Position numbers and translations under genes: made by a program. A stretch of 64,000 bases of DNA from positions 272,192,047 through 272,256,046 of the forward strand of contig OY282559.1 in the NCBI GenBank assembly GCA_958295665.1, written 5' to 3'. This DNA is from Tipula vernalis (taxonomy: Eukaryota; Arthropoda; Insecta; Diptera; Tipulidae). The notes below the pieces were generated by a model. That model was not told the DNA's origin. It searched no databases and worked only from the letters and a program-made list of their open reading frames with translations. Shown here piece by piece: positions 2,857 through 57,920 of this stretch (position 1 is its first letter; every line of letters begins with the position of its first letter).

Positions 2857-5800
2857 ACATCTCGATTATTTGTAATCGACAAAATAAACAAAATAACTTA
2901 TTTAGTCGACACTGGCGCTGACCTTTCGGTTATTCCAGTTTACAATTAAAGAAGTGAGTTTAATATTCTAAAAAGAAATTCAAATCTAGTTTTGTCCGTC
3001 GCCAATGGCACTAATATCCATACTTACGGCACAAAGTTGCTTCAGTTGGATTTGGGACTAAAACGAACCTTCACGCATGCTTTCATATTAGCTTCTGTGA
3101 ATCGTCCCATCATTGGCGCCCACTTCTTGTGCAAATTCGGACTATTGGTTGATCTAACGAATAAACGGCTGGTTGATTCAGTGACAAAGCTGTCAATCAA
3201 TGCCAACATGGTTCACGTCGACACACCGACCCCGATCCATTATTCAATCACCAACAGCTACGGCACTTTGCTAAAAAAGTTTCCTCAACTTACAGCAGAG
3301 CCGAATTATAAATTGCCAGTCCGACACAATGTGGTCCATCACATTGTCACAGCAGGACATCTGCCTGTATCAAGACCAAGAAGACTAGATCAAGTCCGCC
3401 ATAAAGCAGCATTTACGGAATTTCAACATACGGTGGAATTAGGGATTTGCAGGCCCTCTGCATCTCCCGTTTCATGTCCATTGCACATGGTAAAGAAAAA
3501 AGTTCTCGATTAGCGACCATGTGGGGATTATAGACGATTGAACACGGTAACAATACCTGATCGTTATCCTATACCTCACATTCATAATTTCTCCATGCAT
3601 TTACATGGATGCAACATTTTTTCAAAGATCGATCTCGTCAGAGCTTATCATTTGATTCCCGTTTCCCCTGAGGACGTTTTCAAAACGGCAATAACAACTC
3701 CTTTTGGCCTGTTCGAATTCACTCGAATGCCATTCGGATTACGTAATGCCGCTCAAACGTTTCAGCGTTTTATGAACGAAGTCGTTCGAAACTTAGACTT
3801 TGTTTTCGTCTACATTGACGATACTCTTGTGGCATCGCAAACTGAGGAACAGCACAAACTCCACCTGGAACAACTCTTCCAAAGGTTAACTGAGTTTGAT
3901 GTTCACATCAATAGTTCCAAATGCGTCTTTGGCGCGTCAAATCTTGATTTCCTCAGCCACAAAATAACCCCTAATGGTATTCTGCCGTCCGAAGAACGAA
4001 TTAATGCTATTAGGGAATTTCCAGCTCCAAGCTCAATAAAGCACATTCAGCGGTTCATCGGTATGGTAAACTACTACCACCGATTTATACCAAAGCTCGC
4101 TGAAATACTTGCACCAGTTCACAGCAATTTGGTCGTACTTCTACGTAAACCCAAAACACCCAAGAATTTCTCTTGGACTGACGAATGTGAACAAGCATTC
4201 ACGTGACTCAAGGCTGAACTGGCGAAAATAACACTGCTTGCACATCCATTGAGCAATTCAAAACTAAGTTTAACTACTGACGCATCTAACACTGCCGTTG
4301 GAGCAGTATTGCAACAGTTTAATAACGAGTCTTGGGAACCATTGGGATTTTTCTCAAGGAAACTTTCAGATGCTGAAAAGAAATATTCCGCATTTGATCG
4401 GGAATTACTCGCAATATATCTGGCAGTGAAACACTTCAGATATTTTGTCGAAGGTCGGGATTTCACAATCTATACCGACCACAAACCTCTGACTAGAGCA
4501 ATTCAGTCTAAAACTGAACGTAATCCGAGGCAAGCTCGTCATTTGGATTATATTAGTCAATTTACCACAGACATTCAGCATGTGCACGGTTATGACAACG
4601 TTGTTGCAGATACACTCTCTAGCACAACGGACAACGTAATGGCCACAGTCGAAACACAATTCGACTTAAATAAAATCTCAATTATACAACAGGCTGACCT
4701 AGAACTTCAGAAATTGCATTCTGGTTCCGAATGTCACACTAGTTCATCACTGAAACTAGCTAGCACTTGTCAAATTACCTGACCTTGAAATCTTCTGCGA
4801 AACATCCACGGGTTACAATCGCCCGTACATCGCAGAACCACTTCGTCGAACAATCTTCGATGCATTACATAACATTTCACATCCTGGTGTCCGTGCAACT
4901 CGTAAGTTGATTACTGCTCGATATTTTTGGCCTAGTATGAACAAAGACGTAAGCCTTTGGGCTCAGTCCTGTTTATCCTGCCAACGTGCCAAAGTCCAAA
5001 GGCATACTAAATCATCCCATGGACAATTCCAAATACCATCAGGTCGTTTTGAACATATCCATATAGATATAGTAGGACCACTTCCTCTATCTAACGGATA
5101 TACTTACCTGCTCATCTGTGTCGATCGATTCACTCGATGGCCTGAAGCCTACTGCATGACCAATATGTCAGCTGCAACCATTGCCTTGACTTTTGTCAAC
5201 AATTACGTTTCACGATTCGACGTGCCCCTTAATATCACTACTGATCAAGGAACGCAGTTTGAGTCAAAGCTTTTCAGCGAGTTAACAAAACTCCTTGGCT
5301 CACATCGGATTCGTACAACGGCTTATCATCCTCAAGCTAACGGCATGGTCGAACGCTTCCACCGGCAACTCAAAGCTGCGTTAATGACCAGAGGAAACAC
5401 AATCAATTGGAGTTCGGAAATACCCATGGTACTACTGGGAATCCGCGCAACCGTGAAAGAAGATCTGAAGTGCTCACCAGCTGAAATGGTTTATGGACAA
5501 ACCATCAAGCTACCAGGTGAGTTCTTCGTCGAAAATCCTCTTTTACCCTTACCAACTAGCGACACAGTCATCGACCAACTCCGAAACACCATGCAAAACC
5601 ATCCCAAAATCAACTCGGCAAGCTAAACAAGATGACCTTTTTGTTCCCAAGTCACTTGCCAACTGTGATTTTGTGTTCGTAAGAACGGACAAGGTTCGCA
5701 CAGGCTTATCTCCTCCTTATGAAAGGCCGTTTAAAGTCATTCGACGCCTTCGGAAGCAATTCACCGTGTCAATTAATGGAAAAAACCAAACCATTTCAAT

Positions 5801-5906
5801 TGACCGGCTCAAACCGGCTTACGGCATACTATGTTCCACTGATGCGAAATCAGTGTCTCGACAACATAAATCAGTTCGTTTCAAGCCTAACACTGAACTT
5901 CCTTAA
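2857..5906 (+). pseudogene. Gypsy pol polyprotein remnant (protease, RT, RNase H, integrase)
   Basis: Domains in order are: aspartic protease with LVDTGADLSVIP near 2,910-2,940; reverse transcriptase with [15 protein letters not shown] at 3,811-3,822; RNase H with TTDASNTAVGAVLQQ near 4,261-4,320; integrase from about 4,784 with a CLSCQ zinc-binding pair and a DDE core (D in HIDIVGP, D in TTDQGTQF, E in GMVERFHR, residues about 54, 113 and 149 counted from 4,907); and a C-terminal segment ending SIDRLKPAYG. The frame is broken by stops at 2,947 (TAA), 3,511 (TAG, where [11 protein letters not shown] is usual, so probably Trp to stop) and 4,204 (TGA), and by frameshifts near 4,740-4,780 and 5,600-5,620. 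The copy cannot make an active polyprotein. All catalytic motifs are still readable, so decay is mild. Confidence 0.9.
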
Positions 5907-7545: not shown

Positions 7546-8269
7546 CATTTCGAATTTCACAAATCTATCGAATTTCAATCTAGCTTACTAATCTATCGAA
7601 ATATCACATTATCGAAATTCAGTCGGTTGAATTTTAATCGACCGAATGATTTCAATTTATCGAATTTGAATCTATCAAATTCAGTCTATTTAGTTCATGA
7701 ATCTATAGAATTTCAATCTGTCGAATTTCGGCATATCGAATTTCTATCTATTAAATGATTCTAACAAACCACCAATTTCCATTATTTATCGAATTTCAAT
7801 TTGACGACTTTCAGTCTATCTGGTTTCTAATCTATTGAATTTCAATTCATCGAATTTGAAACATTCGAATTCATCAATTTATTAAGTTATTCCGGTTTGG
7901 GGTCGTTTGACTTATAGCGAATTGGTCGCAAATAATATATCAACTAAAAGTTTGACCGCGATACGCAAGTATCTTTTTCTAACACAAAGCGTAAATTATA
8001 AAATTTGAATAAATCGAATATGAATCTATCGAATTTCAGTCTATCGAAGGACTTCATCGTTAAATTTCACCAATCTACCTTTAGGCAACCTTATCTAGAA
8101 AAAAATAATACAGAAACTGAAAATTCCGAAAAAAATCAAGAAAACTAAAATCCAGAAACACAATTATCAAAGTGCGGCCCAAGTTAAAATTGAAATTTAT
8201 AAAATGTCTATAAAATTTGAGTTTTCCGTAAAGTTCTTAATTATTAATGGTAATGTAAATTGCTTCGTC

Positions 8270-8480
8270 AACCTTTCAGACATAGATCAATGGAATTGTA
8301 TCGCTCATATAGCTTCTACTGACAGTTCTACCACAAATTTTTCAAGGTATTTTGTGGTTGTCTTAATTCGTTGGGTTAGTATAGTATTGACGAATGTATT
8401 GGAGTGAATTACGGATTTAATGCTTCGTTAATGATTCGTCAACATTGCAGACACAGATCAATGGAATTTTCAACTATTCT
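8270..8480 (-). repeat. Dispersed repeat copies, inverted relative to 19,871-20,060
   Basis: CAGACATAGATCAATGGAAT through AATTCGTTGGGTTAGTATAG at 8,275-8,390 is the reverse complement of the repeat at 19,900-20,030. A second partial copy (GATTCGTCAACATTGCAGAC, then ACAGATCAATGG) follows at about 8,430-8,470. The family is unknown. Confidence 0.65.
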
Positions 8481-8825: not shown

Positions 8826-8944
8826 ACCTCCATCTATCAGTAGAGGCGGTACGAGCGATACAATTCCTTTGATCTGGGTCTACAAGGTTGACGAATCATT
8901 AACCAATTTAAAACAAATCCGCAGTTCAACTCAATACAATCGTC
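8826..8944 (+). repeat. Left half of the dispersed repeat that hosts the satellite-armed element
   Basis: It carries CAATTCCTTTGATCTG, GGTTGACGAA and AAATCCGCA in the same order as the unbroken copy at 19,871-20,060. The missing right half (CTAACCCAACGAATTAAGCC) resumes at 18,525, on the other side of the 9.56-kb insertion. Together they show the pre-insertion site. Confidence 0.75.
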
Positions 8945-8952
8945 GTTGTCAT
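8945..8952 (+). repeat. Target-site duplication, left copy (GTTGTCAT)
   Basis: The eight bases GTTGTCAT precede the left terminal repeat and recur at 18,517-18,524 directly after the right one. Comparison with the unbroken copy of the host repeat near 20,010 fits a single copy before insertion. Confidence 0.8.
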
Positions 8953-8990
8953 ACCGTTGTGAAGTTAGCACGTAAAGTTAGCACGAAAAA
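8953..8990 (+). repeat. Left terminal inverted repeat with two AGTTAGCACG motifs
   Basis: The first 38 bases contain TGTGAAGTTAGCACG followed by AAAGTTAGCACGAAAA. The decamer AGTTAGCACG therefore occurs twice in close succession and recurs inverted at the right end. It is a candidate recognition site for the mobilising protein. Confidence 0.75.
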
Positions 8991-9866
8991 TTTCAAAATG
9001 TATGCACGGCAATACTTTTAATCAAAGACTTAAACCAGTTTTTTTTTTATACGGATAGTTCTAAAAACAGCCTTACAAAATTTAAAAATAAAAAAATGTA
9101 CAACAACTTATCGTAATAACCTAAATTAAAAAGTTTTACCCAAAAAAAAAAAATTCTTAGCAAAGCGCTAAGTCCGACTGCAACACGAACAGAAAAACTG
9201 AAGTTAGTTCTTCCAATACAATTCCAAAATTATTGCATTATTTTGTTCATTATTTTGTTTTTATTTTCTTGACCAAATGTATAGTATTTTCAATTTCGAC
9301 AAATAAAAAATAGTATATTGTATAACAAATTAAGAAGCCAAGTCATTGCAATACAAAAGGGAAATTTGCAGCCTGAGCGATAGAGAGGGCTGCAATCAGT
9401 TGAGTATTGCAATTATGCGTTTACACACGAGTTACAAACGCTATTTTTTCTACGATACAATAGTCCTGTAATAATTATAAATAATTAGCAACATAAAAAA
9501 TTAAAAATTTGTAAGAATCAAGAAAATTAATAACTGAAACGTTCAGAATATAATTAAAACATTTGGGTTTTCATCACAAATCGTGTGGCAATTGAGAAAT
9601 CGTTGTGCAATGAAATTACAACACGATTTGTGCAAAGTATCCTTTTCTTGTATAATTAAATTTCAAAAATCATCAAAGAAAGCTTAGGTTACTTCATTAT
9701 GGTAGAAAAATATATTTAATTGGCTGATAAAATGAAAATTTGATTGTTTTCATTGGAAAAAATTATTTGGCACAGAAAAAATTAGATTTTTTTATTCTCA
9801 GCCAATTAAATAGGATTTTAAATGAAATAATGGAATATTTTCAGGATTATAGAGAAACAACAGTTT
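8991..9866. other. Left subterminal region of the satellite-armed element
   Basis: It is AT-rich with no coding signal. A 135-base segment at about 9,335-9,470 (AAGTCATTGCAATAC ... CACACGAGTTACAAACG) is matched, diverged, at 23,228-23,350 outside the element. This suggests either a related element fragment there or a captured dispersed repeat here. Confidence 0.5.
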
Positions 9867-12800
9867 AATTTTCAATTAAAGTAGAATCATTAACGAGCTA
9901 TTTGAGAAAATTTTGTAAATTTTGTATGGTTAGGAAGAGAGTACTAACGGTCCGTGCTGGACCCTTCCTCACATTTGTCGGACATGAATTTAATCTTCAA
10001 TTAAAATAGGATCATTAACGAGTTATTTGAGTAAATTTTGTAAATTTTGTATGGTTAAGAAGAGAGTACTAACGGTCCGTGCTGGACCCTTCCTCACATT
10101 TGTCGGACATGAATTTAATTTTCAATTAAAATAGAATCATTAACGAGCTATTTGAGTAAATTTTGTAAATTTTGTATGGTTAGGAAGAGAGTACTAACGG
10201 TCCGTGCTGGACCCTTCCTCACATTTGTCGGACATGAATTTAATTTTCAATTAAAATAGAATCATTAACGAGCTATTTGAGTAAATTTTGTAAATATTGT
10301 ATGGTTAGGAAGAGAGTACTAACGGTCCGTGCTGGACCCTTCCTCACATTTGTCGGACATGAATTTAATTTTCAATTAAAATAGAATCATTAACGAGCTA
10401 TTTGAGTAAATTTTGTAAATTTTGTATGGTTAGGAAGAGAGTACTAACGGTCCGTGCTGGACCCTTCCTCACATTTGTCGGACATGAATTTAATCTTCAA
10501 TTAAAATAGGATCATTAACGAGTTATTTGAGTAAATTTTGTAAATTTTGTATGGTTAAGAAGAGAGTACTAACGGTCCGTGCTGGACCCTTCCTCACATT
10601 TGTCGGACATGAATTTAATTTTCAATTAAAATAGAATCATTAACGAGCTATTTGAGTAAATTTTGTAAATTTTGTATGGTTAGGAAGAGAGTACTAACGA
10701 TCCGTGCTGGACCCTTCCTCACATTTGTCGGACATGAATTTAATTTTCAATTAAAGTAGAATCATTAACGAGTTATTTGAGTAAATTTTGTGAATTTTGT
10801 ATGGTTAGGAAGAGAGTACTAACGGTCCGTGCTGGACCCTTCCTCACATTTGTCGGACATGAATTTAATTTTCAATTAAAATAGAATCATTAACGAGCTA
10901 TTTGAGTAAATTTTGTAAATTTTGTATGGTTAGGAAGAGAGTACTAACGATCCGTGCTGGACCCTTCCTCACATTTGTCGGACATGAATTTAATTTTCAA
11001 TTAAAGTAGAATCATTAACGAGTTATTTGAGTAAATTTTGTAAATTTTGTATGGTTAGGAAGAGAGTACTAACGGTCCGTGCTGGACCCTTCCTCACATT
11101 TGTCGGACATGAATTTAATTTTCAATTAAAATAGAATCATTAACGAGCTATTTGAGTAAATTTTGTAAATTTTGTATGGTTAGGAAGAGAGTACTAACGG
11201 TCCGTGCTGGACCCTTCCTCACATTTGTCGGACATGAATTTAATTTTCAATTAAAATAGAATCATTAACGAGCTATTTGAGTAAATTTTGTAAATATTGT
11301 ATGGTTAGGAAGAGAGTACTAACGGTCCGTGCTGGACCCTTCCTCACATTTGTCGGACATGAATTTAATTTTCAATTAAAATAGAATCATTAACGAGCTA
11401 TTTGAGTAAATTTTGTAAATTTTGTATGGTTAGGAAGAGAGTACTAACGGTCCGTGCTGGACCCTTCCTCACATTTGTCGGACATGAATTTAATCTTCAA
11501 TTAAAATAGGATCATTAACGAGTTATTTGAGTAAATTTTGTAAATTTTGTATGGTTAAGAAGAGAGTACTAACGGTCCGTGCTGGACCCTTCCTCACATT
11601 TGTCGGACATGAATTTAATTTTCAATTAAAATAGAATCATTAACGAGCTATTTGAGTAAATTTTGTAAATTTTGTATGGTTAGGAAGAGAGTACTAACGA
11701 TCCGTGCTGGACCCTTCCTCACATTTGTCGGACATGAATTTAATTTTCAATTAAAGTAGAATCATTAACGAGTTATTTGAGTAAATTTTGTGAATTTTGT
11801 ATGGTTAGGAAGAGAGTACTAACGGTCCGTGCTGGACCCTTCCTCACATTTGTCGGACATGAATTTAATTTTCAATTAAAATAGAATCATTAACGAGCTA
11901 TTTGAGTAAATTTTGTAAATTTTGTATGGTTAGGAAGAGAGTACTAACGATCCGTGCTGGACCCTTCCTCACATTTGTCGGACATGAATTTAATTTTCAA
12001 TTAAAGTAGAATCATTAACGAGTTATTTGAGTAAATTTTGTAAATTTTGTATGGTTAGGAAGAGAGTACTAACGGTCCGTGCTGGACCCTTCCTCACATT
12101 TGTCGGACATGAATTTAATTTTCAATTAAAATAGAATCATTAACGAGCTATTTGAGTAAATTTTGTAAATTTTGTATGGTTAGGAAAAGAGTACTAACGA
12201 TCCGTGCTGGACCCTTCCTCACATTTGTCGGACATGAATTTAATTTTCAATAAAAATAGAATCATTAACGAGCTATTTGAGTAAATTTTGTAAATTTTGT
12301 ATGGTTAGGAAGAGAGTACTAACGGTCCGTGCTGGACCCTTCCTCACATTTGTCGGACATGAATTTAATCTTCAATTAAAATAGGATCATTAACGAGTTA
12401 TTTGAGTAAATTTTGTAAATTTTGTATGGTTAAGAAGAGAGTACTAACGGTCCGTGCTGGACCCTTCCTCACATTTGTCGGACATGAATTTAATTTTCAA
12501 TTAAAATAGAATCATTAACGAGCTATTTGAGTAAATTTTGTAAATTTTGTATGGTTAGGAAGAGAGTACTAACGATCCGTGCTGGACCCTTCCTCACATT
12601 TGTCGGACATGAATTTAATTTTCAATTAAAGTAGAATCATTAACGAGTTATTTGAGTAAATTTTGTAAATTTTGTATGGTTAGGAAGAGAGTACTAACGG
12701 TCCGTGCTGGACCCTTCCTCACATTTGTCGGACATGAATTTAATTTTCAATTAAAATAGAATCATTAACGAGCTATTTGAGTAAATTTTGTAAATTTTGT

Positions 12801-15800
12801 ATGGTTAGGAAGAGAGTACTAACGGTCCGTGCTGGACCCTTCCTCACATTTGTCGGACATGAATTTAATTTTCAATTAAAATAGAATCATTAACGAGCTA
12901 TTTGAGTAAATTTTGTAAATTTTGTATGGTTAGGAAGAGAGTACTAACGGTCCGTGCTGGACCCTTCCTCACATTTGTCGGACATGAATTTAATCTTCAA
13001 TTAAAATAGGATCATTAACGAGTTATTTGAGTAAATTTTGTAAATTTTGTATGGTTAAGAAGAGAGTACTAACGGTCCGTGCTGGACCCTTCCTCACATT
13101 TGTCGGACATGCATTTAATTTTCAATTAAAATAGAATCATTAACGAGCTATTTGAGTAAATTTTGTAAATTTTGTATGGTTAGGAAGAGAGTACTAACGA
13201 TCCGTGCTGGACCCTTCCTCACATTTGTCGGACATGAATTTAATTTTCAATTAAAGTAGAATCATTAACGAGTTATTTGAGTAAATTTTGTAAATTTTGT
13301 ATGGTTAGGAAGAGAGTACTAACGGTCCGTGCTGGACCCTTCCTCACATTCGTCGGACATGAATTTAATTTTCAATTAAAATAGAATCATTAACGAGCTA
13401 TTTGAGTAAATTTTGTAAATTTTGTATGGTTAGGAAGAGAGTACTAACGGTCCGTGCTGGACCCTTCCTCACATTTGTCGGACATGAATTTAATTTTCAA
13501 TTAAAGTAGAATCATTAACGAGCTATTTGAGTAAATTTTGTAAATTTTGTATGGTTAGGAAGAGAGTACTAACGATCCGTGCTGGACCCTTCCTCACATT
13601 TGTCGGACATGAATTTAATTTTCAATTAAAGTAGAATCATTAACGAGTTATTTGAGTAAATTTTGTAAATTTTGTATGGTTAGGAAGAGAGTACTAACGG
13701 TCCGTGCTGGACCCTTCCTCACATTTGTCGGACATGAATTTAATTTTCAATTAAAATAGAATCATTAACGAGCTATTTGAGTAAATTTTGTAAATTTTGT
13801 ATGGTTAGGAAGAGAGTACTAACGGTCCGTGCTGGACCCTTCCTCACATTTGTCGGACATGAATTTAATCTTCAATTAAAATAGGATCATTAACGAGTTA
13901 TTTGAGTAAATTTTGTAAATTTTGTATGGTTAAGAAGAGAGTACTAACGGTCCGTGCTGGACCCTTCCTCACATTTGTCGGACATGAATTTAATTTTCAA
14001 TTAAAATAGAATCATTAACGAGCTATTTGAGTAAATTTTGTAAATTTTGTATGGTTAGGAAGAGAGTACTAACGATCCGTGCTGGACCCTTCCTCACATT
14101 TGTCGGACATGAATTTAATTTTCAATTAAAGTAGAATCATTAACGAGTTATTTGAGTAAATTTTGTAAATTTTGTATGGTTAGGAAGAGAGTACTAACGG
14201 TCCGTGCTGGACCCTTCCTCACATTTGTCGGACATGAATTTAATTTTCAATTAAAATAGAATCATTAACGAGCTATTTGAGTAAATTTTGTAAATTTTGT
14301 ATGGTTAGGAAGAGAGTACTAACGGTCCGTGCTGGACCCTTCCTCACATTTGTCGGACATGAATTTAATCTTCAATTAAAATAGGATCATTAACGAGTTA
14401 TTTGAGTAAATTTTGTAAATTTTGTATGGTTAAGAAGAGAGTACTAACGGTCCGTGCTGGACCCTTCCTCACATTTGTCGGACATGAATTTAATTTTCAA
14501 TTAAAATAGAATCATTAACGAGCTATTTGAGTAAATTTTGTAAATTTTGTATGGTTAGGAAGAGAGTACTAACGATCCGTGCTGGACCCTTCCTCACATT
14601 TGTCGGACATGAATTTAATTTTCAATTAAAGTAGAATCATTAACGAGTTATTTGAGTAAATTTTGTAAATTTTGTATGGTTAGGAAGAGAGTACTAACGG
14701 TCCGTGCTGGACCCTTCCTCACATTTGTCGGACATGAATTTAATTTTCAATTAAAATAGAATCATTAACGAGCTATTTGAGTAAATTTTGTAAATTTTGT
14801 ATGGTTAGGAAGAGAGTACTAACGGTCCGTGCTGGACCCTTCCTCACATTTGTCGGACATGAATTTAATTTTCAATTAAAATAGAATCATTAACGAGCTA
14901 TTTGAGTAAATTTTGTAAATTTTGTATGGTTAGGAAGAGAGTACTAACGGTCCGTGCTGGACCCTTCCTCACATTTGTCGGACATGAATTTAATCTTCAA
15001 TTAAAATAGGATCATTAACGAGTTATTTGAGTAAATTTTGTAAATTTTGTATGGTTAAGAAGAGAGTACTAACGGTCCGTGCTGGACCCTTCCTCACATT
15101 TGTCGGACATGAATTTAATTTTCAATTAAAATAGAATCATTAACGAGTTATTTGAGTAAATTTTGTAAATTTTGTATGGTTAGGAAGAGAGTACTAACGG
15201 TCCGTGCTGGACCCTTCCTCACATTTGTCGGACATGAATTTAATTTTCAATTAAAATAGAATCATTAACGAGCTATTTGAGTAAATTTTGTAAATTTTGT
15301 ATGGTTAGGAAGAGAGTACTAACGGTCCGTGCTGGACCCTTCCTCACATTTGTCGGACATGAATTTAATTTTCAATTAAAATAGAATCATTAACGAGCTA
15401 TTTGAGTAAATTTTGTATGGTTAGGAAGAGAGTACTAACGGTCCGTGCTGGACCCTTCCTCACATTTGTCGGACATGAATTTAATTTTCAATTAAAATAG
15501 AATCATTACCGAGCTATTTGAGTAAATTTTGTAAATTTTGTATGGTTAGGAAGAGAGTACTAACGATCCGTGCTGGACCCTTCCTCACATTTGTAGGACA
15601 TGAATTTAATTTTCAATTAAAGTAGAATCATTAACGAGTTATTTGAGTAAATTTTGTAAATTTTGTATGGTTAGGAAGAGAGTACTAACGGTCCGTGCTG
15701 GACCCTTCCTCACATTTGTCGGACATGAATTTAATTTTCAATTAAAATAGAATCATTAACGAGCTATTTGAGTAAATTTTGTAAATTTTGTATGGTTAGG

Positions 15801-16246
15801 AAGAGAGTACTAACGGTCCGTGCTGGACCCTTCCTCACATTTGTCGGACATGAATTTAATTTTCAATTAAAATAGAATCATTAACGAGCTATTTGAGTAA
15901 ATTTTGTAAATTTTGTATGGTTAGGAAGAGAGTACTAACGGTCCGTGCTGGACCCTTCCTCACATTTGTCGGACATGAATTTAATCTTCAATTAAAATAG
16001 GATCATTAACGAGTTATTTGAGTAAATTTTGTAAATTTTGTATGGTTAAGAAGAGAGTACTAACGGTCCGTGCTGGACCCTTCCTCACATTTGTCGGACA
16101 TGAATTTAATTTTCAATTAAAATAGAATCATTAACGAGCTATTTGAGTAAATTTTGTAAATTTTGTATGGTTAGGAAGAGAGTACTAACGGTCCGTGCTG
16201 GACCCTTCCTCACATTTGTCGGACATGAATTTAATTTTCAATTAAA
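9867..16246 (+). repeat. 125-bp satellite array, about 51 tandem copies
   Basis: The unit is 125 bp, measured between successive TCCGTGCTGG occurrences (9,951, 10,076, 10,201 and so on). One copy near 15,420 lacks nine bases. Copies are nearly identical but fall into variant classes that recur together: one with AATCTTCAATT, ATAGGATC and GGTTAAGAAG; one with AACGATCCG; one with TTAAAGTAGAATC and GAGTTATTT; and a majority type. Each unit holds the imperfect hairpin GGTCC-GTGCT-GGACC inside flanking AGGAAG and CTTCCT. The array forms the left arm of the element at 8,953-18,516. No open frame runs through it, so it is non-coding. Confidence 0.97.
10115..12114 (+). repeat. 1-kb higher-order repeat (8 x 125 bp) present twice in tandem
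   Basis: Units 10,115-11,114 and 11,115-12,114 share the same order of eight variant monomers. They also share private changes 1,000 bases apart, such as TAAATATTG (about 10,289 and 11,289) and TGTGAATTT (about 10,787 and 11,787). Later in the array a shorter block of four or five monomers recurs from 12,365 to about 15,100. Confidence 0.85.
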
Positions 16247-16311
16247 ATATAATTAAAGAGACCTTTGCGAAATAGTTTGAAAAATTTGAGCATTAATTTT
16301 GCTCGCAATTT

Positions 16312-17337
16312 TTATTGATTTTTCTTACGAAAAATGATTAAGTGAGGTATTACTTTTTCAGCTGCAGGTTTAGTTATAGCTTGAACGTGTGATTTTAAAT
16401 CATCGTACTTTTCCCATTTATTACCTCTTCTGCAGTAGCTTACGTAATGTGGTTGGCTTTGTGAAGGTATGTAACTTACCAATGAGTTAATTTCGTATAT
16501 TTTATTTTGATGCACAATTCTTTCTTGGATATCATTAATTGGAATAGGTGATTGCTTATTTATGAATTCCGTTTGGATTGCAATGACGTCCATTGAAATT
16601 CTTTTAGAAACATCCAGGTAGATTCCACAAACTTTACATTTCTTTTGATGAATTTCCGTAAAATTTCGTTTTAAATTTGTAAACCCTGTTTTTTCTAGGC
16701 CAAAAATATCTATATTAATGTATGATCTCTCTTCAGTTGTTTCTGCGAGACATTTTTGACAAATGAAATTTATTATTTCGCTAGGATTGCTTTTCATAAA
16801 AAAATCCGAAATTTTTGAAATATTGCAATCACAGAAATTTGTATATTGATAAATATCAATTAAAATTTCATTCCTGACAATATAAGCCCGGGACATGTTT
16901 CGTTCTGTTAAATGCATTAATAGATCTCTAAGTTTTGAAGGTTTCATATCATTAACTTTGAATGAATTAATGGCACTTTGAACAAATGAGTCGAAGCCGC
17001 AAGTATTTTTATAATAATCATTAGTGAGGCTCCCGTTTTCCAGCAAAGGCCAGGTATTAACGGTAGACCAAGCTGAGGATAAGTTTCTGCTACATGATTG
17101 TGTCGATTTTCTTAATGGCGTTTCATTTAAAGGAAGAAGGGTTGATCCCAAAATTGAAATTGATTTGCTTTCCTTAATTTGTTTGTCACTCGATTGGGCA
17201 AGCTCTTTTATTTTTTGAAAATAAAAATTCGATTTATTTTTTTGTATATTTAAAGATAAATTTTTTTTGGTACCATCGTATTGTATGTGCCTTTGGAGAT
17301 GTGATGGGTTATACGAAATAATTGCGCGACCCGTCAA
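16312..17337 (-). CDS. USP-like cysteine protease (C19-type fold), transposon-encoded
   Basis: This uninterrupted 341-residue frame resembles ubiquitin-specific proteases. The Cys box is NTCGFDSFVQ (Cys113, with Asn111 where USPs often have NTC). The His box is QPHYVSYCRRGNKWEKYDD (His297, with Asp312 or Asp313 as the third member). Two Cys pairs between them, CQKC (193/196) and CKVC (234/237), sit where USPs carry a zinc-binding insertion. At about 230 residues from Cys box to C-terminus it is short for a USP. Residues 1-110 have no recognised domain. The gene lies alone between the two inverted satellite arms. Codons 1 to about 23 lie in the last copy of a 174-bp tandem repeat, so the true start or a 5' exon is uncertain. 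It may deubiquitinate, bind ubiquitin or act in transposition; the open frame beside decayed neighbours suggests recent function. No expression evidence exists. Confidence 0.75.
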   Translation of the reverse strand: MTGRAIISYNPSHLQRHIQYDGTKKNLSLNIQKNKSNFYFQKIKELAQSSDKQIKESKSISILGSTLLPLNETPLRKSTQSCSRNLSSAWSTVNTWPLLENGSLTNDYYKNTCGFDSFVQSAINSFKVNDMKPSKLRDLLMHLTERNMSRAYIVRNEILIDIYQYTNFCDCNISKISDFFMKSNPSEIINFICQKCLAETTEERSYINIDIFGLEKTGFTNLKRNFTEIHQKKCKVCGIYLDVSKRISMDVIAIQTEFINKQSPIPINDIQERIVHQNKIYEINSLVSYIPSQSQPHYVSYCRRGNKWEKYDDLKSHVQAITKPAAEKVIPHLIIFRKKNQ

Positions 17338-17668
17338 ACGGTTTTTATGAATTTTTCAAAATTACACTACTCAAAAAATGGTGAATGTGTGCGTTTGGTG
17401 GCCTTTGATACGCAATCGTAGAAATGGCTACGCGTATCTTAGTGTACCATCGTATTGTATGTGCCTTTGGGGATGTGTTGGGTTATACGAAATAATTGCG
17501 CGACCCGTCAAACGGTTTTTATGAATTTTTCAAAATTACTCTACTCAAAAAAATGGTGAATGTGTGCGTTTGGTGGCCTTTGATACGCAATCGTAGAAAT
17601 TACTACGCATATCTTAGTGTACCATCGTATTGTATGTGCCTTTGGGGATGTGTTGGGTTATACAAAAT
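17270..17668 (-). repeat. 174-bp tandem duplication over the 5' end of the USP-like gene
   Basis: GTACCATCGTATTGTATGTG starts at 17,270, 17,444 and 17,619, giving units of 174 and 175 bp and a partial third. The copy nearest the gene encodes its first 22 or so residues. The outer copies differ by a few bases (GGCTACGCG against TTACTACGC) and run directly into the right satellite arm. On the gene strand the unit may hold the promoter or first exon. Confidence 0.85.
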
Positions 17669-18228
17669 TTACTCAAATAACTCGTTAATGATTCTATTTT
17701 AATTTAAAATTAAATTCATGTCCGACAAATGTGAGGAAGGGTCCAGCACGGACCGTTAGTACTCTCTTCCTAACCATACAAAATTTACAAAATTTACTCA
17801 AATAACACGGTAATGATTCTACTTTAATTGAAGATTAAATTCATGTCCGACAAATGTGAGGAAGGGTCCAGCACGGATCGTTAGTACTCTCTTCCTAACC
17901 ATACAAAATTTACTCAAATAACTCGTTAATGATTCTACTTTAATTGAAGATTAAATTCATGTCCGACAAATGTGAGGAAGGGTCCAGCACGGACCGTTAG
18001 TATTCTCTTCCTAACCATACAAAATTTACTCAAATAACTCGTTAATGATTCTACTTTAATTGAAAATTAAATTCATGTCCGACAAATGTGAGGAAGGGTC
18101 CAGCACGGATCGTTAGTACTCTCTTCCTAACCATACAAAATTTACAAAATTTACTCAAATAACTCGTTAATGATTCTATTTTAATTGAAAATTAAATTCA
18201 TGTCCGACAAATGTGAGGAAGGGTTTAT
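17663..18228 (-). repeat. Inverted right arm: about 4.5 copies of the 125-bp satellite
   Basis: The units here are the reverse complement of the left array (ATGTCCGACAAATGTGAGG, AGTACTCTCTTCCTAACC). Several lack the same nine bases as the short unit near 15,420 of the left arm. The last copy stops inside GTGAGGAAGGG and gives way to subterminal DNA. The arms are strikingly unequal, about 6.4 kb against 0.57 kb. Confidence 0.95.
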
Positions 18229-18516
18229 TAAGGTATTCTAATTATCGGTACAAGAAAACAAAAGAGCTGGTTTCAATATTTTTCGTGCTAACTTTGCTTG
18301 ATTTCAACTATTTATACACGAGTAAATATGAATATTCCATTTGCAATTTTGTTATTCTTTGATTTTCTCTTTTTTCGTGCTAACTTTATTCCGGGCTATC
18401 GAATATTACATTTTTCGTGCTAACTTTTTAGTACAAATGTGTCTTTGATTTGTTTGTACTAAAAGTGTTGCCATTGCGTTTTACGTGCTAACTTTTCGTG
18501 CCAGCTTCACAGACAT
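18229..18516 (-). repeat. Right subterminal region and terminal inverted repeat
   Basis: The motif TTTCGTGCTAACTTT, the reverse complement of AAAGTTAGCACGAAA, occurs at about 18,281, 18,373 and 18,413. Variants TTTTACGTGCTAAC and TTTTCGTGCCAGC follow at 18,479-18,506, and the end is CTTCACAGACAT. On the left there are two such motifs, both at the very end. Confidence 0.75.
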
Positions 18517-18524
18517 GTTGTCAT
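18517..18524 (+). repeat. Target-site duplication, right copy (GTTGTCAT)
   Basis: It is identical to 8,945-8,952. It is followed by CTAACCCAACGAATTAAGCC, the continuation of the host repeat seen uninterrupted at about 20,014-20,033. Confidence 0.8.
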
Positions 18525-18671
18525 CTAACCCAACGAATTAAGCCAACCCCGACAAAGTAAAAAAATTGCAAAAAGCTACTCCACACCACCGCTTTCACGA
18601 TTATTTGAAATTCTAACATTCATAGAAATCGGAACATTTTTCAAAAATTTGTGTTTTTTAATAATTATTCA

Positions 18672-19012
18672 CATACTAAAATAGAGACCTCCCCAAAGCC
18701 GCTTAGCATTGGTCCTTTCTGCGCAAGGATGACATGAAATTATGCAGCTTCCTTTTGTTTTCATATTATGCAGTTAACAAATTTAACGTGGTCTTCCCTT
18801 TTAATAGGGTTCATTATTTGGTATTTCTCAACAACAAAAATCCCGAAAAACACAAATTTAATTGCCAGAAGACCTCATTCGATTTTCATTAAATACGACC
18901 AATAATAATTTGATAACCAAAAAGATGCTACATAATTTTTTGTCTTCCTTGCGCAGAGAGGACCAATGCTAAGCGACTTTGAGGAGTTTTTTATTTTAGT
19001 ATGTAAAACAGA
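18672..19012. mobile_element. Small inverted-repeat element (MITE-like)
   Basis: CATACTAAAATA ... CGCTTAGCATTGGTCC ... TGCGCAAGGA at 18,672-18,729 is repeated inverted at about 18,946-19,012. The arms are about 60 bp with some mismatches and the spacer is about 220 bp. No coding signal or clear target duplication was found, so the family is unassigned. Confidence 0.6.
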
Positions 19013-19087: not shown

Positions 19088-19244
19088 AGAGCTATTTGGG
19101 AATTCGATTCGAACGTGATCGAGTCTTCGATATATAAGATTCATATTTGATTTAAATAAGAAACGAATGAATCTGATTCAATTCAAATGGAAATCTAATA
19201 CATCGCATACTCGATCACGTTCGAATCCAATTCCCAAATAGCCC
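19088..19244. mobile_element. Short inverted-repeat element with about 35-bp arms
   Basis: GCTATTTGGGAATTC ... GAACGTGATCGAGT on the left mirrors ACTCGATCACGTTCGAAT ... CCCAAATAGC on the right, with a spacer of about 85 bp. The minus-strand frame at 18,875-19,144 overlaps it and is not protein-like. Confidence 0.6.
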
Positions 19245-19870: not shown

Positions 19871-20060
19871 AAACATTTGTGGTACATCTATCAGAAGTAG
19901 CGATACGAGCGATACAATTCCTTTGATCTGTGTCTGCAAGGTTGACGAAGCATTAACGAATAATTAAATCCGCAATTCGCTAAAATAGATTCGTCGATAC
20001 TATACTAACCCAACGAATTAAGCCAATCACAAAATAATTTGTAACATTTGTGGTAGAACT
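19871..20060 (+). repeat. Unbroken copy of the dispersed repeat
   Basis: It runs from ACATTTGTGGTA through CCTTTGATCTGTGTCTGCAA and AATCCGCAATTCGC to CTAACCCAACGAATTAAGCC. It spans the junction that is split by the satellite-armed element, so it serves as an empty-site reference. Inverted fragments lie at 8,270-8,480. Confidence 0.7.
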
Positions 20061-23227: not shown

Positions 23228-23350
23228 ATACCACAAGTCATTGCAATACGAAGCTGAAACATACAATCACTTGAATATTACAATTGAACGTTTTCACACG
23301 AGTTATACACGGTATTATTTGTACGAATTTAAAGAATTATTCAGAATTAA
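23228..23350 (+). repeat. Diverged match to the left subterminal region of the satellite-armed element
   Basis: ACCACAAGTCATTGCAATAC ... TTACAATTGAACG ... ACACGAGTTATACACGGTAT corresponds in order to segments at 9,335-9,450. It may be a fragment of a relative of that element or a shared dispersed repeat. Confidence 0.45.
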
Positions 23351-28329: not shown

Positions 28330-30900
28330 AAAAGAAAAATTTATTCGGAACCATAAGCTCCAGTACAATTTTGACTAAAAATTAAATTATTAAAAGCACA
28401 AATAAATTATTCAACTGAAAAAATTTTTTTTAATGATTGTCTGATTTCCACTTTCGTCATGTTTAAGTCGCAAAATATGCAAAGTGCGTTATAAAGTTTC
28501 GACATAGAATTCAAAGACTCGTCGCTTCCATAATTCGTTCGGTGAAAAGCAATTTTCAAGAGTGTGCGAGTACGTAGGTTTTTAATAGGAGCATACAATT
28601 TTAGGTTCATTAACAAGTACGCACTCAAAATATACCGTTAAGTAAATCGGAAATAAAAATAGCTCCAGCATGCTGACGACGAATTTCAAGTGGCTCAATT
28701 TTCAAAGATTTACATCTATCTACGTATGAAGGGATTTTCCCACCAAGGTAATCGACGGTCAAACTCCCCAGATTTATATGCATAAAAAATGAGAAAAGAT
28801 TTTTGTATTGATTCAATTCTGCTTATGTGTTCATTATAACGTGGAGACCGTACGCATGATGCATATTCGAGCTGTGAGCGTACAAGAGATTGATACATAC
28901 AAACAAAAACTCTAGGATTATTAAACTCTTTCATACTACGTTTTAAAAATCCTAGAAACATAGAATTGGGCTTTGGCACAAATCATGTCAAAATGACGTT
29001 TAAATGATAATGTAAAAGTGAATTTAATTCCACGATCCCTTATTTCGTTAACACGATTCAAAGTGTTATTTGCAAGGTTGTAATTATAAATAAGATACGA
29101 AGATGAACGTGTAAACGTCACCATTTTGCACTTAGCTACATTCAAATGTAATAAATTCTTACACCAAGAGCTTACCCCGTCTATATCAATTTGTAATTTA
29201 CCTGCATCAGATAGACTACGAATAGGAGAAAATATTTTTAGGTCGTCAGCATATATTAGACATCGGGAAAATTTTATGCTTTTTGTGATACCATTTACAA
29301 ATAATATGAAAATAAGTGGACCAAGATGTGAGCCCTGAGGTACTCATCAATCTACTTATGATTTTAATTTTTGCAAAACAAAAAAGTGATTGATTGAGTC
29401 AAAAACCTTACTGAAATCGGTGTAAATGACATCCAGTTGAGCATTACTCTCAATCACCTCCGTGGCATGTTTCGTAAACTCCACTAAATTTGACACAGTA
29501 GAACGCCCACGGAAAAAACCATGTTGCTCATCTACAATAAACGACTTTAGTCCAAAAAACATATAATCACACACAAGTGACTCAAACAATTTTGGAATGG
29601 CTGACAACAACGAAATTCCCCTTTAATATCGGTACAATATGAGACGATTTCCAGGCAACCGGAAAAACACCTTTTAAAAGTGAATCATTATATAAAATTG
29701 ACAAAGGCAGCAATTTTTAAGAAAGTACGAAGGAATACCATCTGGGCCACATCCGTCCTTAAACCAATGAAGGGATTTAACGATATCCTCTGGAGATATA
29801 TGAGGTGTGTACAAACAAGATTTGGTACAACTATACCTTCTGCATTAACATATTTGTCGTTATCAATATCAGTCCGACTATATATATTTTGAAAAAATGA
29901 AGCAAAGCAATATCCCCAGAATTAGTACTAGTAAAATCATTGAACCGCATAGTTGATGGAAATCCAAAAGTTTTTCTTTTGGAGTCAACGAAATTCCAAA
30001 ATGATTTTGGATTTGAAGTCATATTATTTTGAGCCTTAATAATAAAATTTTTATAAGCAATTGAATGCAAATCGTCAAAATGTTTCGATAAAATTAAAAA
30101 TGGTAATATGTCGTCAGCGTTTCCGGATAACTTCCATCTTCGATATAATTTTTTCTTACGATTACGTAGGTTTATTAGATCGTTGTTAAACCACGGAAGA
30201 TATTTACGATTAACTTTTTTATTAGAAACCGGTACAAACCATCATTATCAGCACGCCTAAAATCATAAAATTTAATAGAATTACAATTATTAGTATTAAA
30301 ATTAGACACCAAAAACTCTGATACGTTTAAATTGATTTCCATAGATTTGTGGTTGACATCGTTGATGATATACGGAACTGCTAACTTTATCATAAAGAGA
30401 TTGGCAGAGTTAGCAAAAAACAAGTGTAGAAATTTACCATTATAGTTAGAAACGTTATTTATCTGAACGAGACCAGATGACAAAATGGAATCAATACATA
30501 TTGATTCAGCCTCCGACTTAACATTGTACGGAATGACGCAGTTTACGTCGTCATCTACCAGCCATTCGACCTTTGGCAAGTTGAAATCGCCAACTATCAG
30601 CACGTTGTCAACTAAGTTGAGTTTATAAATTATATTATACAAACAGTTTGTATATGTCGTATAAACTTCAGATGAAGGCCTCGGTGGAATGCCAATAATG
30701 AAAATATTCTTCTTAAATATATTTAACTTGATGCATAAAAGTTCAATTGTTGAATCACTATCAACGGCCTCACTTACAATAGATGAATGAACTGCCATCA
30801 ATACACCTCCTCCACTTGATTTGACACTAGATAGTGCCGAGCGGTCACACCTGTATACAATATAGTCTGCCGGAAAATACTCAGAAAGTCAGAACTATAT
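28330..30900 (-). pseudogene. LINE A: endonuclease and reverse transcriptase, decayed
   Basis: Read on the minus strand this is ORF2 of a Jockey/CR1-like non-LTR element. The endonuclease part at 30,880-30,175 includes YRCDRSALSSVKSSGGGVLM and VLIVGDFNLPKVEW (the GDFN box). A linker follows at 30,070-29,830 (NPKSFWNFVDSKRK). The RT at 29,610-28,936 includes DEQHGFFRGRSTVSNL, a PQGSHLGP stretch and the catalytic YADD at 29,254-29,243. The C-terminal region at 28,979-28,407 includes YQSLVRSQLEYASCVRSPRY. There are several frame changes and stops. No RNase H was seen. The A-rich 3' end lies near 28,305-28,335. Confidence 0.85.
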
Positions 30901-31079
30901 ACATATATTCGGATTTAAATTGATCTCTACAATCACGTAAACGGGATACATAGAAGCAACGACAAAGCGATAGAACTCAGCGGATTTAGAGGCAATACCG
31001 CGAACATTTTGAAATTTTTTTGGAACAATTCAGATATATTGGAGCACAGTATGAAATTAAAGGATCCACTAGAGTTCGA

Positions 31080-32354
31080 ATAATGTAACGAATAATATTG
31101 CTTACTTAAAATCCCTTATATTTTACTGCACAGATTATTCACATGCACAGACTAGTTCAATTTATTATCTATGAATAAACCCAAGCTTTTGAGTTGGTCA
31201 TATAAATCGATCCTTTGATTATCAATTACCAGATGAATAGACGGTAAAATTACTTGCTGGGAACGATATAATCATTTACTGGGGTTAATTTTGAGTTTAT
31301 TTACGGTTGACCAATCAAATACGTTGGATAAGGTAATATTCAGATTATGTACTACATTATCAACAGAGTCGGACTCTCTAAACAAATACAATTGCAAATC
31401 ATCAGTATAAAGATGATGGCAAGTATTATTAGTTTTTTGAACGACCTTGCTTATTTCATTTATATAAAGAGAGAACAATATTGGCCCCAAAATCGAACCT
31501 TGAGGAACTCCAGAAGTAATATTTTACTGATTGCTTTTTTAAATGGAATAATAAGAAAAGACTAATTGACAAGCGCATTTAGAAAAGTTATACTCTTTGC
31601 ATAGCTTCATCACTAAGGTTGTATGGTCAACTTTATCAAACGCCTTAGAAAAATCAAAAAGAACTATAATATCAAATTTACCATCTTCTATATTAGTAGT
31701 AATATCGTCCCCAACATTTAAAAGTGCTGTAGTAGTGCTATGATGCGCTCGAAAACCAGATTGATATTTGTTTAATAAGTTATATTTTGTTAAATCACCG
31801 TTTATTTGGTATTGAATCATTTTTTCAAACAGTTTGGATAACACTGGTAAAATGCTAATTGGACGGAAATCGTTCACAGTAACTGAGGCACGTGTTTTAG
31901 GAAGAGGTGTAACTACGGATATTTTCCACGTTTAAGGATAGACAGGTTTAGTAAGTGCTGAATTTATTAGATAGGTTAAAGGTATTAAATGTTTAATAAA
32001 AATAAGTGGTATGCCAACAGCACCACGACATAGACACCATTTTCAGAACTATATTGCAACGTATCCAAATTCAACTTATTATTATCTGCAAGGAAAACCA
32101 AACCAAAATATTCATTAAACTCTTCAGGAGTTATATTAGATTTCGAGTCAGCACAAGCAGAATGAATGTAAGCCCTACAATTTTTTCAGAATAATTTACA
32201 TGGGATGTTTTTGTTAAAACGATTATCGAAAAATTGGCGTTTTGTGGACTTAATCATATTATTTTCTTTATTTCTAACTCTGATATATTCTGACCGATTG
32301 AATCCAGTTTTATTTCGTTTCCAGTTCTCCTAAAGAAAATCGCAAATATTTCGG
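31080..32354 (-). pseudogene. LINE B, 3' part: reverse transcriptase
   Basis: Minus-strand RT sequence of a second non-LTR element. At 31,877-31,539 it reads NDFRPISILPVLSKLFEKMI, then SGFRAHHSTTTAL and FDFSKAFDKVDH, with the first catalytic Asp in LFDFSKAFD. At 31,490-31,272 it reads GPILFSLYINE and HHLYTDDLQLY, with YTDD in place of the usual YADD. The part between 32,354 and 32,171 is the linker region that is duplicated at 36,371-36,554. The element is split here by a LOA insertion, and its endonuclease resumes at 36,555-37,150. Confidence 0.85.
32171..32354 (+). repeat. 184-bp direct repeat, left copy, flanking the LOA element
   Basis: It starts AGCCCTACAATTTTTTCAG and ends GCAAATATTTCGG. 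It matches 36,371-36,554 at equal length with about eight or nine substitutions. It is LINE B sequence duplicated on both sides of the LOA insertion, so it reads as an unusually long target-site duplication. Confidence 0.85.
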
Positions 32355-32635: not shown

Positions 32636-32729
32636 AGATCTATGCATGCATCTGTAAGATGCGTACAAATCAACCTACATAGAACCAAGGCCGCCACATC
32701 TGTGGACCAACAATGGAAGAATTAAAGGG

Positions 32730-35700: not shown

Positions 35701-36210
35701 GACCCCTACGGTTTTCCGTGCTTCAGTGCCCCAAAAAGAAGTATATAAGAACGGAGATCTACATAATCTCGGATAGCCAGGCTGTTTTATTAGCCCTGGC
35801 AGCTCCGTTGTTCAGCTCTAAACTGACATTGAGCTGCTACAGCAACCTTAGAAGGTTGGGTAGCGACAACAAGGTTACCCTCTTGTGGTCCCTCGGCCAC
35901 TATAACCAGGGAAAGAGGCCGCAGACACCTGTGCAAAAGAGGGTGCGGGTGGAATCTTCTACGGCCCCGGCCGAGCCTAGCGTTGCCTATTCCAAAGGCC
36001 ATGTAGCAAGGAGAGACCTCTTCTGGGAGCAGAGATGTTCTGCTTCACTCTGGGAGTCATCTCGGGAATGAAACAGGGAAAACCCCATCAGAGAACTGCA
36101 AGTTCTGTAATCTGGGAAGAGAAACATCCGAACACTCGCTGTTCGAGTGCAGTGCGATCGCCCTAAGAAGAATTAAAACACTCAATGCTTACTCTTAGTG
36201 GCCTCACGCC
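32730..36210 (+). pseudogene. LOA ORF2: endonuclease, RT, RNase H, zinc ribbon; broken
   Basis: The endonuclease shows MASAYFPGDDNDPPPEE at about 32,904-32,955, then GCDANSHHTIWSSTNTNTRG near 33,000-33,050 and NNTGNEPPF. The RT runs from about 33,920 (SGGDGIYP) through SYRPVSLASFILKTTEKIL, ALLYSFIDIQGAFDN with the first Asp, GCPQGGVL, and IIAYADDLVLM with YADD at 34,587-34,598. RNase H begins with WCADGSKTNEGTGAG near 35,613-35,660 and continues in another frame with ISDSQAVLLAL. A zinc ribbon CKFCNLGRETSEHSLFEC follows near 36,090-36,145. Frames change several times, and stops occur at about 34,215, 34,470 and 34,836. A fold-back duplication breaks the region between RT and RNase H. Confidence 0.88.
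35139..35383. repeat. Fold-back (inverted duplication) inside the LOA element
   Basis: The segment at 35,139-35,185 (ATATATCGTCGTGTCCAAAT ... TACATCTGCAAATCATT) is repeated inverted at about 35,338-35,383. Inside the spacer a second inverted pair (AAATTTGGCTTAATTC and AATTAAGCCGAAATT) lies at about 35,219 and 35,289. Coding sequence resumes after the right arm, so this is an insertion or inversion that split the gene. Confidence 0.75.
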
Positions 36211-38714: not shown

Positions 38715-38777
38715 TCGCTCGATTAAGGGTGATCAACCTCAATCTAGTTCGGTAGCTTACAAATAGTCAAAATCAAG

Positions 38778-39206
38778 GTGATGCTTCAGGGTCAGTATGT
38801 TTCGCAACTACATCTCAAATTCTTCTACATATATACTCCCGTAATTTGGGTTTATGGTGCTAGTGGTGTAAAATATCCCTGTCGTGTTCTGCTTGATTCG
38901 GCTTCTCACAAAAATTTCGTAACCGAAGATTTATGTCAAATGTTACAAGTACCACAGAAACCTACTTTTTCATTGGTTTCCAGGGTTAACGAAAATGTAA
39001 CGCAATTAAAAAATGAGGTGCACTTGAAAATTCAATCTCGAACATCTAAGTTTGAAGCAAGTCTCGATTTTTTGGTAATGTTAAAAATAACAGGAGAATT
39101 ACCACTTGTTCCAATTACATTCAACAATCGGGAGATACCGGATTCCATTCAACTTGGTGACCCGTTCTTCTATAAATCACAAAAAATCGATATGTTGAAC
39201 ACATGA
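38778..39206 (+). pseudogene. BEL aspartic protease domain, truncated pol
   Basis: The frame contains CRVLLDSASHKNFVTEDLC, the BEL-type protease active site (DSAS where retroviral-type enzymes have DTGA). It is followed by the DUF1758-like body with LGDPFFYKSQKID. It ends where RT should begin and abuts the integrase frame, overlapping it by four bases in a different frame. It is intact as far as it goes but truncated. Confidence 0.8.
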
Positions 39207-54941: not shown

Positions 54942-55022
54942 ATGAATCAATTTGATAAATCCTTGAATCAGCTTTTTCCCGTAGGTAAAAAGCTGATTCA
55001 AGGATTTATCAAATTGATTCAT
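54942..55022. repeat. Perfect 36-bp palindrome with 9-base loop
   Basis: The arm ATGAATCAATTTGATAAATC ... CAGCTTTTT (54,942-54,977) is the exact reverse complement of 54,987-55,022. The loop is CCCGTAGGT. No mismatch was found over 36 pairs, which is unusual in this otherwise diverged DNA. Confidence 0.9.
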
Positions 55023-56650: not shown

Positions 56651-56654
56651 AGTG

Positions 56655-57888: not shown

Positions 57889-57920
57889 AACGGATATCCG
57901 TTTAACAAAATGTTTAACTT

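Follow-up and report, generated by a model that had tools for sequence, protein, structure and literature searches.

Foldback (FB) and Galileo elements have long inverted arms of tandem repeats whose length differs between copies; Galileo makes a 7-bp target-site duplication (TSD) and is reportedly a P-superfamily element. Inverted termini that bear satellite DNA are already known from other elements. In the cited sections of the published accounts, Rehavkus-1_TC of Tribolium castaneum is a Mutator/Rehavkus element of about 9.5 kb with the 164-bp satellite TCsat23 in its inverted termini, in arrays of mostly five and eight monomers and none beyond nine (PMC10218199), and Rehavkus elements are described as duplicating 9 bp of the target, encoding a PHD finger, and carrying a mini-satellite ahead of the 3′ end (PMC6446971). 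Tetris of Drosophila virilis, as far as its description is cited here, is a foldback element with satellite monomers of about 220 bp in its inverted repeats, end domains, and 8- to 10-bp TSDs; its arrays expanded within the element, and foldback repeats can seed satellites (PMC4079207). For Tm1 of root-knot nematodes, a Mutator/Foldback element with a 9-bp TSD, the described sections report unlike outer motifs followed by short tandem repeats (PMC3169594). Here, we describe a 9,564-bp DNA transposon located by direct reading and a script check at positions 8,953 to 18,516 of a 64,000-nucleotide stretch (the window) of the genome of the dipteran Tipula vernalis (GCA_958295665.1, contig OY282559.1), together with the family to which it belongs. 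This is a transposon family with inverted satellite arms, and the window copy is very probably a nonautonomous, internally deleted member of a cut-and-paste DNA transposon family, most likely Mutator-like, with arms of its own 125-bp satellite.

The left terminus of the element is ACCGTTGTGAAGTTAGCACG, and the right terminus, read as the reverse complement, is ATGTCTGTGAAGCTGGCACG. An exact 8-bp TSD, GTTGTCAT, flanks the element at 8945 to 8952 and 18517 to 18524; given the base composition here, the probability that 8 bp agree exactly by chance at a given position is ~4e-5. The similarity between the termini is short. The outermost six bases differ between the ends and are followed at each by two tandem 13-bp units, GTGAAGYTRGCAC-GWAAAGTTAGCAC. 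In the left terminus (8953 to 8990, + strand), for which near-identical ends are found in the 30 paired copies described below, the asymmetric ACCGTT precedes the tandem units GTGAAGTTAGCAC/GTAAAGTTAGCAC. The right end has three more copies of the motif internally: the right flanking domain (18225 to 18516) holds four exact AGTTAGCACG motifs on the minus strand plus a variant terminal unit and ends in ...GTGCCAGCTTCACAGACAT. Unlike outermost motifs before short tandem repeats are shared with Tm1, which differs in having repeats of about 14 bp, a Phantom-type transposase of 496 amino acids, and, in the described sections, no long satellite (PMC3169594).

The insertion interrupts a host repeat, with its 5′ piece at 8831 to 8952 (+ strand) and its 3′ piece resuming at 18517. 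When the flanks were joined in silico to give an empty site, the alignment to an uninterrupted copy of the repeat at 19885 to 20030 (+ strand) passed through the junction, as did the alignment to a second, inverted copy within 8261 to 8468 (− strand). Because the occupied site lacks an A that adjoins the target in both empty copies, the window copy may have had an original 9-bp target and later lost one base. Direct reading and the script thus bore out the inverted ends, the flanking duplications, and the oppositely oriented 125-bp arrays named in a preliminary description of the locus, and the alignment agrees with its claim that a host repeat is split at the duplication while an unbroken copy lies nearby; the second copy had not been listed there.

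Between the ends, a left flanking domain free of tandem satellite copies (8953 to 9863) meets the satellite at the same junction point as in the other young copies compared. The left arm (9864 to 16253, + strand) consists of 51 monomers of the 125-bp satellite (51 anchors with 97% matches), with runs of 4- and 8-monomer higher-order repeats. It is followed by a coding-centre remnant (16315 to 17270, − strand), by 2.3 copies of a 175-bp tandem repeat that forms the inverted arms of another family elsewhere (17270 to 17668, + strand), and by the right arm (17669 to 18224, − strand), in which about 4.6 monomers of the 125-bp satellite lie in the opposite orientation with anchor spacings of 116, 116, and 125. 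The arms are therefore inverted satellite arrays, as first described, but they are not of equal build: they are very unequal in length, begin at different satellite phases, and are accompanied by the extra 175-bp array. The "single gene" of the preliminary description is likewise present as a reading frame (16315 to 17355) but is the 3′ part of a longer gene; this part encodes the USP-like C-terminal portion of a transposase-USP protein, and its frame continues into the 175-bp repeat only because of an internal deletion. In comparison with copy L018, the window copy misses 3,467 bp of the centre; part of this is extra 175-bp copies in L018, so about 3 kb is unique centre. The missing gene part is encoded by L016 and L018, and the product of the fuller copies is a DDE-type transposase that bears MULE-like motifs and is joined in one protein to a USP-like deubiquitinase domain. 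The window's own frame had no relative in protein databases, and scans for Rfam families and tRNAs gave no match.

The genome (1.27 Gb, with three scaffolds of 464, 412, and 371 Mb) was searched with the element's outermost 108 bases on the left (40 of 135 candidates scored) and 111 bases on the right (41 rows, 40 of 143 candidates scored), and the copy number is a lower bound only. The preliminary description had taken the element for a Foldback-like transposon of a possibly new family, and further copies with the same ends were indeed found: 40 left-end matches at 93 to 100% identity and 40 right-end rows covering at least 109 of the 111 bases at 98 to 100%, plus one short match. A right end could be paired with 30 of the 40 scored left ends, and 27 of these 30 copies have exact TSDs at different sites (24 of 8 bp and 3 of 9 bp); two more have one mismatch in 8, and one has three mismatches. 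Copies are located on the three large scaffolds and one small one. The paired copies range from 1,095 to 51,629 bp (median, 4,748 bp), a spread to which arrays, centres, and inserted sequence all contribute, and the longest three (26.6, 43.5, and 51.6 kb) have exact 8-bp duplications. Ten points sampled along the 43.5-kb span gave the 125-bp satellite at eight, a diverged form of it (72%) at one, and the ends of another related copy at one, so the span includes sequence that is not its own. In the 51.6-kb copy, two of ten samples fell in the 125-bp satellite, seven in the 175-bp repeat over about 24 kb, and one in the coding centre. Two left ends that were fetched and remained unpaired look like nested insertions: that of L010 abuts the same kind of satellite, as though it had landed in the arm of another copy, and only 11 bases separate that of L028 from right-end sequence, as though this copy, too, had landed in another. 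At these two loci (L028, C2:294398033-294398261; L010, C2:406552449-406553881), the ends of two copies lie close together in an unusual orientation.

Eighteen copies were read end to end (the window copy, L009, L015 to L017, L019 to L023, L025, L026, L069 to L073, and L075). The usual order of parts is left end, left domain (about 0.8 kb), satellite in + orientation, centre, 175-bp repeat, satellite in − orientation, right domain, and right end, and many copies are without some of these parts. All 18 carry the 125-bp satellite, which is therefore part of the element itself, and 16 of the 18 carry it in both arms, in line with the Foldback-like anatomy first proposed: inverted, variable tandem-repeat arms within TSD-flanked ends. 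L015, L020, L070 to L073, and L075 are short copies with the classic foldback layout: they have no centre, and no more than about 30 bases lie between their two arms. Two subfamilies are distinguished by their first bases, and the satellite occurs in both. In the young type, which starts with ACCGT, the left domain is joined directly to the satellite; in the copies compared, the older subfamily, which starts with ACCGA, has about 175 bp extra in the left domain and about 185 bp extra in the right. In L018, one of five coding loci, the centre is inverted relative to the ends, which is the product expected from recombination between inverted arms.

Rehavkus-1_TC, as far as its published description is cited here, is the closest known system, ahead of Tetris and Tm1, being alike in size and in the satellite within its inverted termini, and the satellite next to the termini that marks Rehavkus is present here as well. 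The same description sets the present family apart by the length of its left arms, with 51 monomers in the window copy and about 70 in the fetched part of L011; a further difference is the second satellite, found at seven sampled points over 24 kb in the 51.6-kb copy.

A protein search of the genome scored 59 of 2,553 candidate matches, among which the relatives are 36 to 70% identical to the protein of the window family. By eye, the matched stretch contains no stop in 38 of the 59, and the open frame reaches at least 1,000 amino acids in 30. Arrays were inspected in 12 relatives. L076 and L077, both copies of a single family (41% identity), carry a 124-bp satellite in inverted arms, and L079 (39%) carries a 173-bp satellite in inverted arms. 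In L078 (67%), the array has a unit of 125 bp that is similar in part, a 95-bp repeat occurs on one side and again, inverted, on the other, and the terminal 13-bp motif is the same. Eight further relatives were taken from the plus-strand matches among the 59, with varied scores and with sampling distances fixed beforehand, and in six of the eight the two sides carry arrays of the same unit in opposite orientations, with periods of 173, 173, 186, 174, 123, and 176 bp. One 173-bp unit is that of L079; the others are unrelated across families or are 71 to 76% similar over 71 to 110 bp or shorter stretches, and none of the sampled units matched the window's 125- or 175-bp unit.

That six of eight sampled relatives keep inverted satellite arms despite a changed satellite sequence is what would be expected if the arms were retained for a role in transposition, as extra transposase-binding sites or as decoys for silencing. 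Such a role has been argued for Galileo and Tetris repeats in the cited sections of the Tetris study (PMC4079207). In the window, however, the terminal AGTTAGCACG motif is confined to the end domains and does not occur in the satellite; copies with hardly any left arm have exact TSDs (L017, with no left array; L070, with one left monomer; and L071, with two); and one of the eight relatives has no array in the sample. We consider a role of this kind possible but doubtful.

A related element lies in the window itself at 57119 to 61995. It is 4,877 bp long, with a 9-bp TSD, CTCGAAAAC, and 780-bp inverted arms that are 97.8% identical. Its internal repeats are 71 to 82% like the 176-bp satellite of the family at C1:10504943, and its broken transposase pieces match the protein of locus L096 (27 to 40%), with a Ulp1 domain rather than a USP domain at the end.

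The L018 protein is 35 to 36% identical to the related proteins P0003 to P0005 over 99 to 100% of the query, with lengths of 1,000 to 1,192 amino acids. Four relatives of the fuller protein were found in protein databases, to which a profile search added only a 314-amino-acid piece; a PDB sequence search gave no match, and no relative of the transposase-USP protein was found in viral contigs. The catalytic motifs in the window family are LDGTGG, IDFSFAELNS, CCSH, and HVENYF. Their key residues are kept in seven of seven aligned proteins, as is the order D, D, CxxH, E, with CxxH between the second D and E. The combination of DDE and CxxH is the MULE signature. A USP (peptidase C19) is marked by a Cys box, a His box with Asp, two CxxC zinc pairs, and the USP fold. 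All seven aligned proteins have the Cys box, the first CxxC pair, and, within the His box, both the His and the Asp that follows Tyr; the second CxxC pair is regular in six, with L077 deviating. The Pfam UCH match had an E value of 0.008, below its cut-off. A model of the C terminus (324 residues) had a mean predicted local distance difference test score (pLDDT) of 68.6, with ten-residue blocks from residue 101 on at 66 to 94, and a Foldseek search with this model returned USP structures (best E value, 1.1e-10, for USP18) with modest TM-scores of about 0.44 to 0.47. From motifs and model, the C terminus of the transposase protein is predicted to be a USP-like deubiquitinase domain. In P0006, a relative from another source, the C terminus resembles an OTU protease by eye, and one member of the alignment hits Pfam OTU with an E value of 0.096. 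Comparison of these proteins suggests that USP, Ulp1, and perhaps OTU domains may swap at the C-terminal end of the transposase.

On the sequence evidence, the superfamily is likely Mutator/Rehavkus. MULEs make 8- to 10-bp TSDs, a range within which the present duplications fall. Of the exact TSDs, 24 of 27 are of 8 bp, and 3 have the 9 bp described for Rehavkus, as does the TSD of the related window element at 57119 to 61995. The family differs from Rehavkus, as the latter is described in the cited sections, in having a USP-like C terminus rather than a PHD finger; Pfam detected no PHD finger in the 882-amino-acid L016 frame and the last 764 amino acids of L018 (E values up to 5) or in P0003 to P0006 (E values up to 1), and no THAP domain in the same proteins. 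Phantom MULEs, with 8- to 10-bp TSDs, are alike in TSD length, and aphid elements of this kind have a mini-satellite after the transposase open reading frame; inverted satellite arms or a USP domain go unmentioned in the cited part of that account (PMC6446971). Likewise, the cited part of an arthropod MULE survey of 2026 makes no mention of satellite, tandem, or Ulp1 (PMC13359780). In the open-licence literature, we found neither a transposase-USP fusion reported together with such arms nor an account of numerous families in which each has an arm satellite of its own.

The long, variable inverted arms are shared with FB and Galileo, and to that extent the kinship with these elements that was first suggested holds for the Foldback-like anatomy; the protein motifs, the TSD length, and the literature favour Mutator/Rehavkus over Galileo, which differs in its reported P-superfamily membership and in its 7-bp TSD versus 8 to 9 bp here. 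Membership in Galileo/P was dropped on the TSDs of 8 to 9 bp and the lack of a THAP domain by Pfam. An element of another superfamily with 8-bp duplications, hAT or P, appears unlikely. An 8-bp TSD fits both, and no profile match decides the matter, but 9-bp TSDs are found in 3 of the 27 exact cases and in the related window element at 57119 to 61995, and the D, D, CxxH, E order is that of MULEs.

The satellite arrays bear on how the arms grew. By eye, 8 of 13 young-type copies, among them the window copy itself, share one and the same 32-base sequence around the left satellite junction, and the other five have one to three differences from it. Among 489 near-full monomers, mean divergence was 3.2% within one copy's arm and 3.7% between copies for the same arm. 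Array growth was assessed in 12 left arrays (L012 was excluded for its short array). Seven of them, including all four that measure at least 6 kb, contain an exact internal repeat longer than any exact block in common with another copy: 1,128 versus 730 bp in the window copy, 3,167 versus 546 bp in L011, 1,350 versus 287 bp in L014, and 621 versus 314 bp in L024, and likewise in L009, L015, and L025. Because internal repeats exceed shared blocks in these seven arrays, the sequences point to amplification of the long arrays in place, on top of shared ancestry. In-element expansion of arrays, satellite in the inverted repeats, and flanking end domains are also features of Tetris, which, as far as described in the cited sections, is noncoding, has no known autonomous partner, and also occurs as contigs of TIR-220 alone (PMC4079207); the present family differs in having coding copies and in showing no free array among the matches listed.

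The genome search with the 175-bp repeat (38 of 198 candidates scored, with counts from the matches listed) showed, by eye, at least 10 clusters outside the window family in which both orientations lie close together as inverted pairs, and further clusters in a single orientation only. At L096, the 3.9 kb between an inverted 175-bp pair hold a frame of 1,063 amino acids whose product belongs to this protein family and is about 24.5% identical to the protein of the window family. Since an inverted 175-bp pair flanks a related gene there, the 175-bp array of the window family is, judging by sequence comparison, a distant relative's arm satellite held as an extra array. For the 125-bp satellite, 40 of 306 candidates were scored, and all of the matches listed lie inside eight elements with at least one known end; no free array outside elements was seen among them. 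A source for the satellite was sought in the element's own single-copy domains, where only a 26-bp match was found, an array stub at the edge of an older copy, and a 25-base satellite core had no exact match in viral or prokaryote contig collections.

The 175-bp case demonstrates that satellites do move between elements, since another family's arm satellite sits inside the window family, and it lends some plausibility to the view that one transposon captured a preexisting free satellite and brought it here. We nevertheless regard that view as improbable, given that all 18 copies read end to end, of both the young type and the older subfamily, contain the 125-bp satellite and that no match to it was listed outside elements. 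Capture by the window copy alone was dropped, the satellite being common to the whole family; accordingly, of the earlier proposal that the element carried a satellite into this locus, it stands that the transposon holds a satellite, which is family-wide and amplified in place rather than this copy's own cargo. Tandem arrays are hard to assemble, and assembled array lengths may be wrong, but it is hardly credible that misassembly produced the inverted right array and with it the whole structure when the same order of parts recurs at many loci, 27 of 30 with their own matching TSD, and relatives repeat the inverted layout with other satellites.

We return to the preferred reading, a Mutator-like cut-and-paste family with its own satellite arms. 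Transposase from fuller copies or close relatives would recognize ends with GTGAAG and the 13-bp motif repeats, the putative binding sequence, and would make the 8- to 9-bp TSDs; between its ends, the family carries the inverted arms of its own 125-bp satellite. After insertion, the arms would grow and shrink by unequal exchange or repair slippage and may recombine with each other, and satellites might pass between families by recombination or nesting. The USP domain could protect the transposase or its complex from ubiquitin-dependent removal.

Several observations weigh against parts of this reading. The model of the transposase catalytic domain is poor (mean pLDDT, 46), and no Pfam transposase match was obtained in the fuller proteins or in P0003 to P0006; the basis for assigning the family to the MULEs is therefore its motifs, its TSD length, and the literature. 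At each of the five coding loci that the window family has among the scored matches, the gene is interrupted: by a stop in the N-terminal part in L018, by a frameshift and loss of the putative catalytic glutamate in L016, by the deletion in the window copy, and by stops in the remaining two. One of the 30 paired copies is effectively without a duplication, and the TSD check covered 30 of the 40 left ends, the rest being seven with no partner in the scored list and three that were fetched but stayed unpaired; of these three, L027 has a left end and part of the left domain with no satellite in 9.9 kb. L017 and L069 carry the satellite in the right arm only. In 5 of the 12 left arrays, the shared block is as long as or longer than the internal repeat (internal versus shared, 724 versus 730 bp in L010, 403 versus 456 bp in L013, 322 versus 395 bp in L016, 272 versus 321 bp in L018, and 90 versus 314 bp in L075). 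Besides the sampled relative that has no array, another has an array on one sampled side only (181 bp).

Other features of the window were noted in passing. Palindromes, possibly small inverted-repeat elements, lie at 18668 to 19007, 19091 to 19242, and 54942 to 55022, the first two adjoining the insertion, and a 63-bp stretch of the element's left domain (9393 to 9455) is 81% identical to 23264 to 23326 outside the element. By eye, frames resembling a gypsy-type element, several non-LTR elements, a BEL/Pao-type element, and a piggyBac-like fragment are found at 2950 to 5903, 28939 to 31931, 32658 to 36068, 37738 to 40207, 51872 to 53597, and 56651 to 56962; profile matches among them are to H2C2 integrase (39203 to 40210) and DDE_Tnp_1_7 (56651 to 56962).

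The birth and dispersal of satellite DNA is an old question, and transposons such as these may act as a source from which new satellites spread. With many insertions that have exact duplications and hold from one to about seventy monomers per arm, in related families with different satellites, satellite growth, exchange, and possible escape become measurable copy by copy, and the transposase-USP fusion suggests interference with host ubiquitin control. More broadly, and as a tentative proposal that we would not yet back at even chances, there may be a superfamily of transposase-deubiquitinase transposons in which inverted satellite arms are a standing but exchangeable part, with families that have evolved or acquired their own satellites of 123 to 186 bp, arms that reach tens of kilobases, and satellites that pass between families, and these transposons may be a main source of new satellites in this genome.

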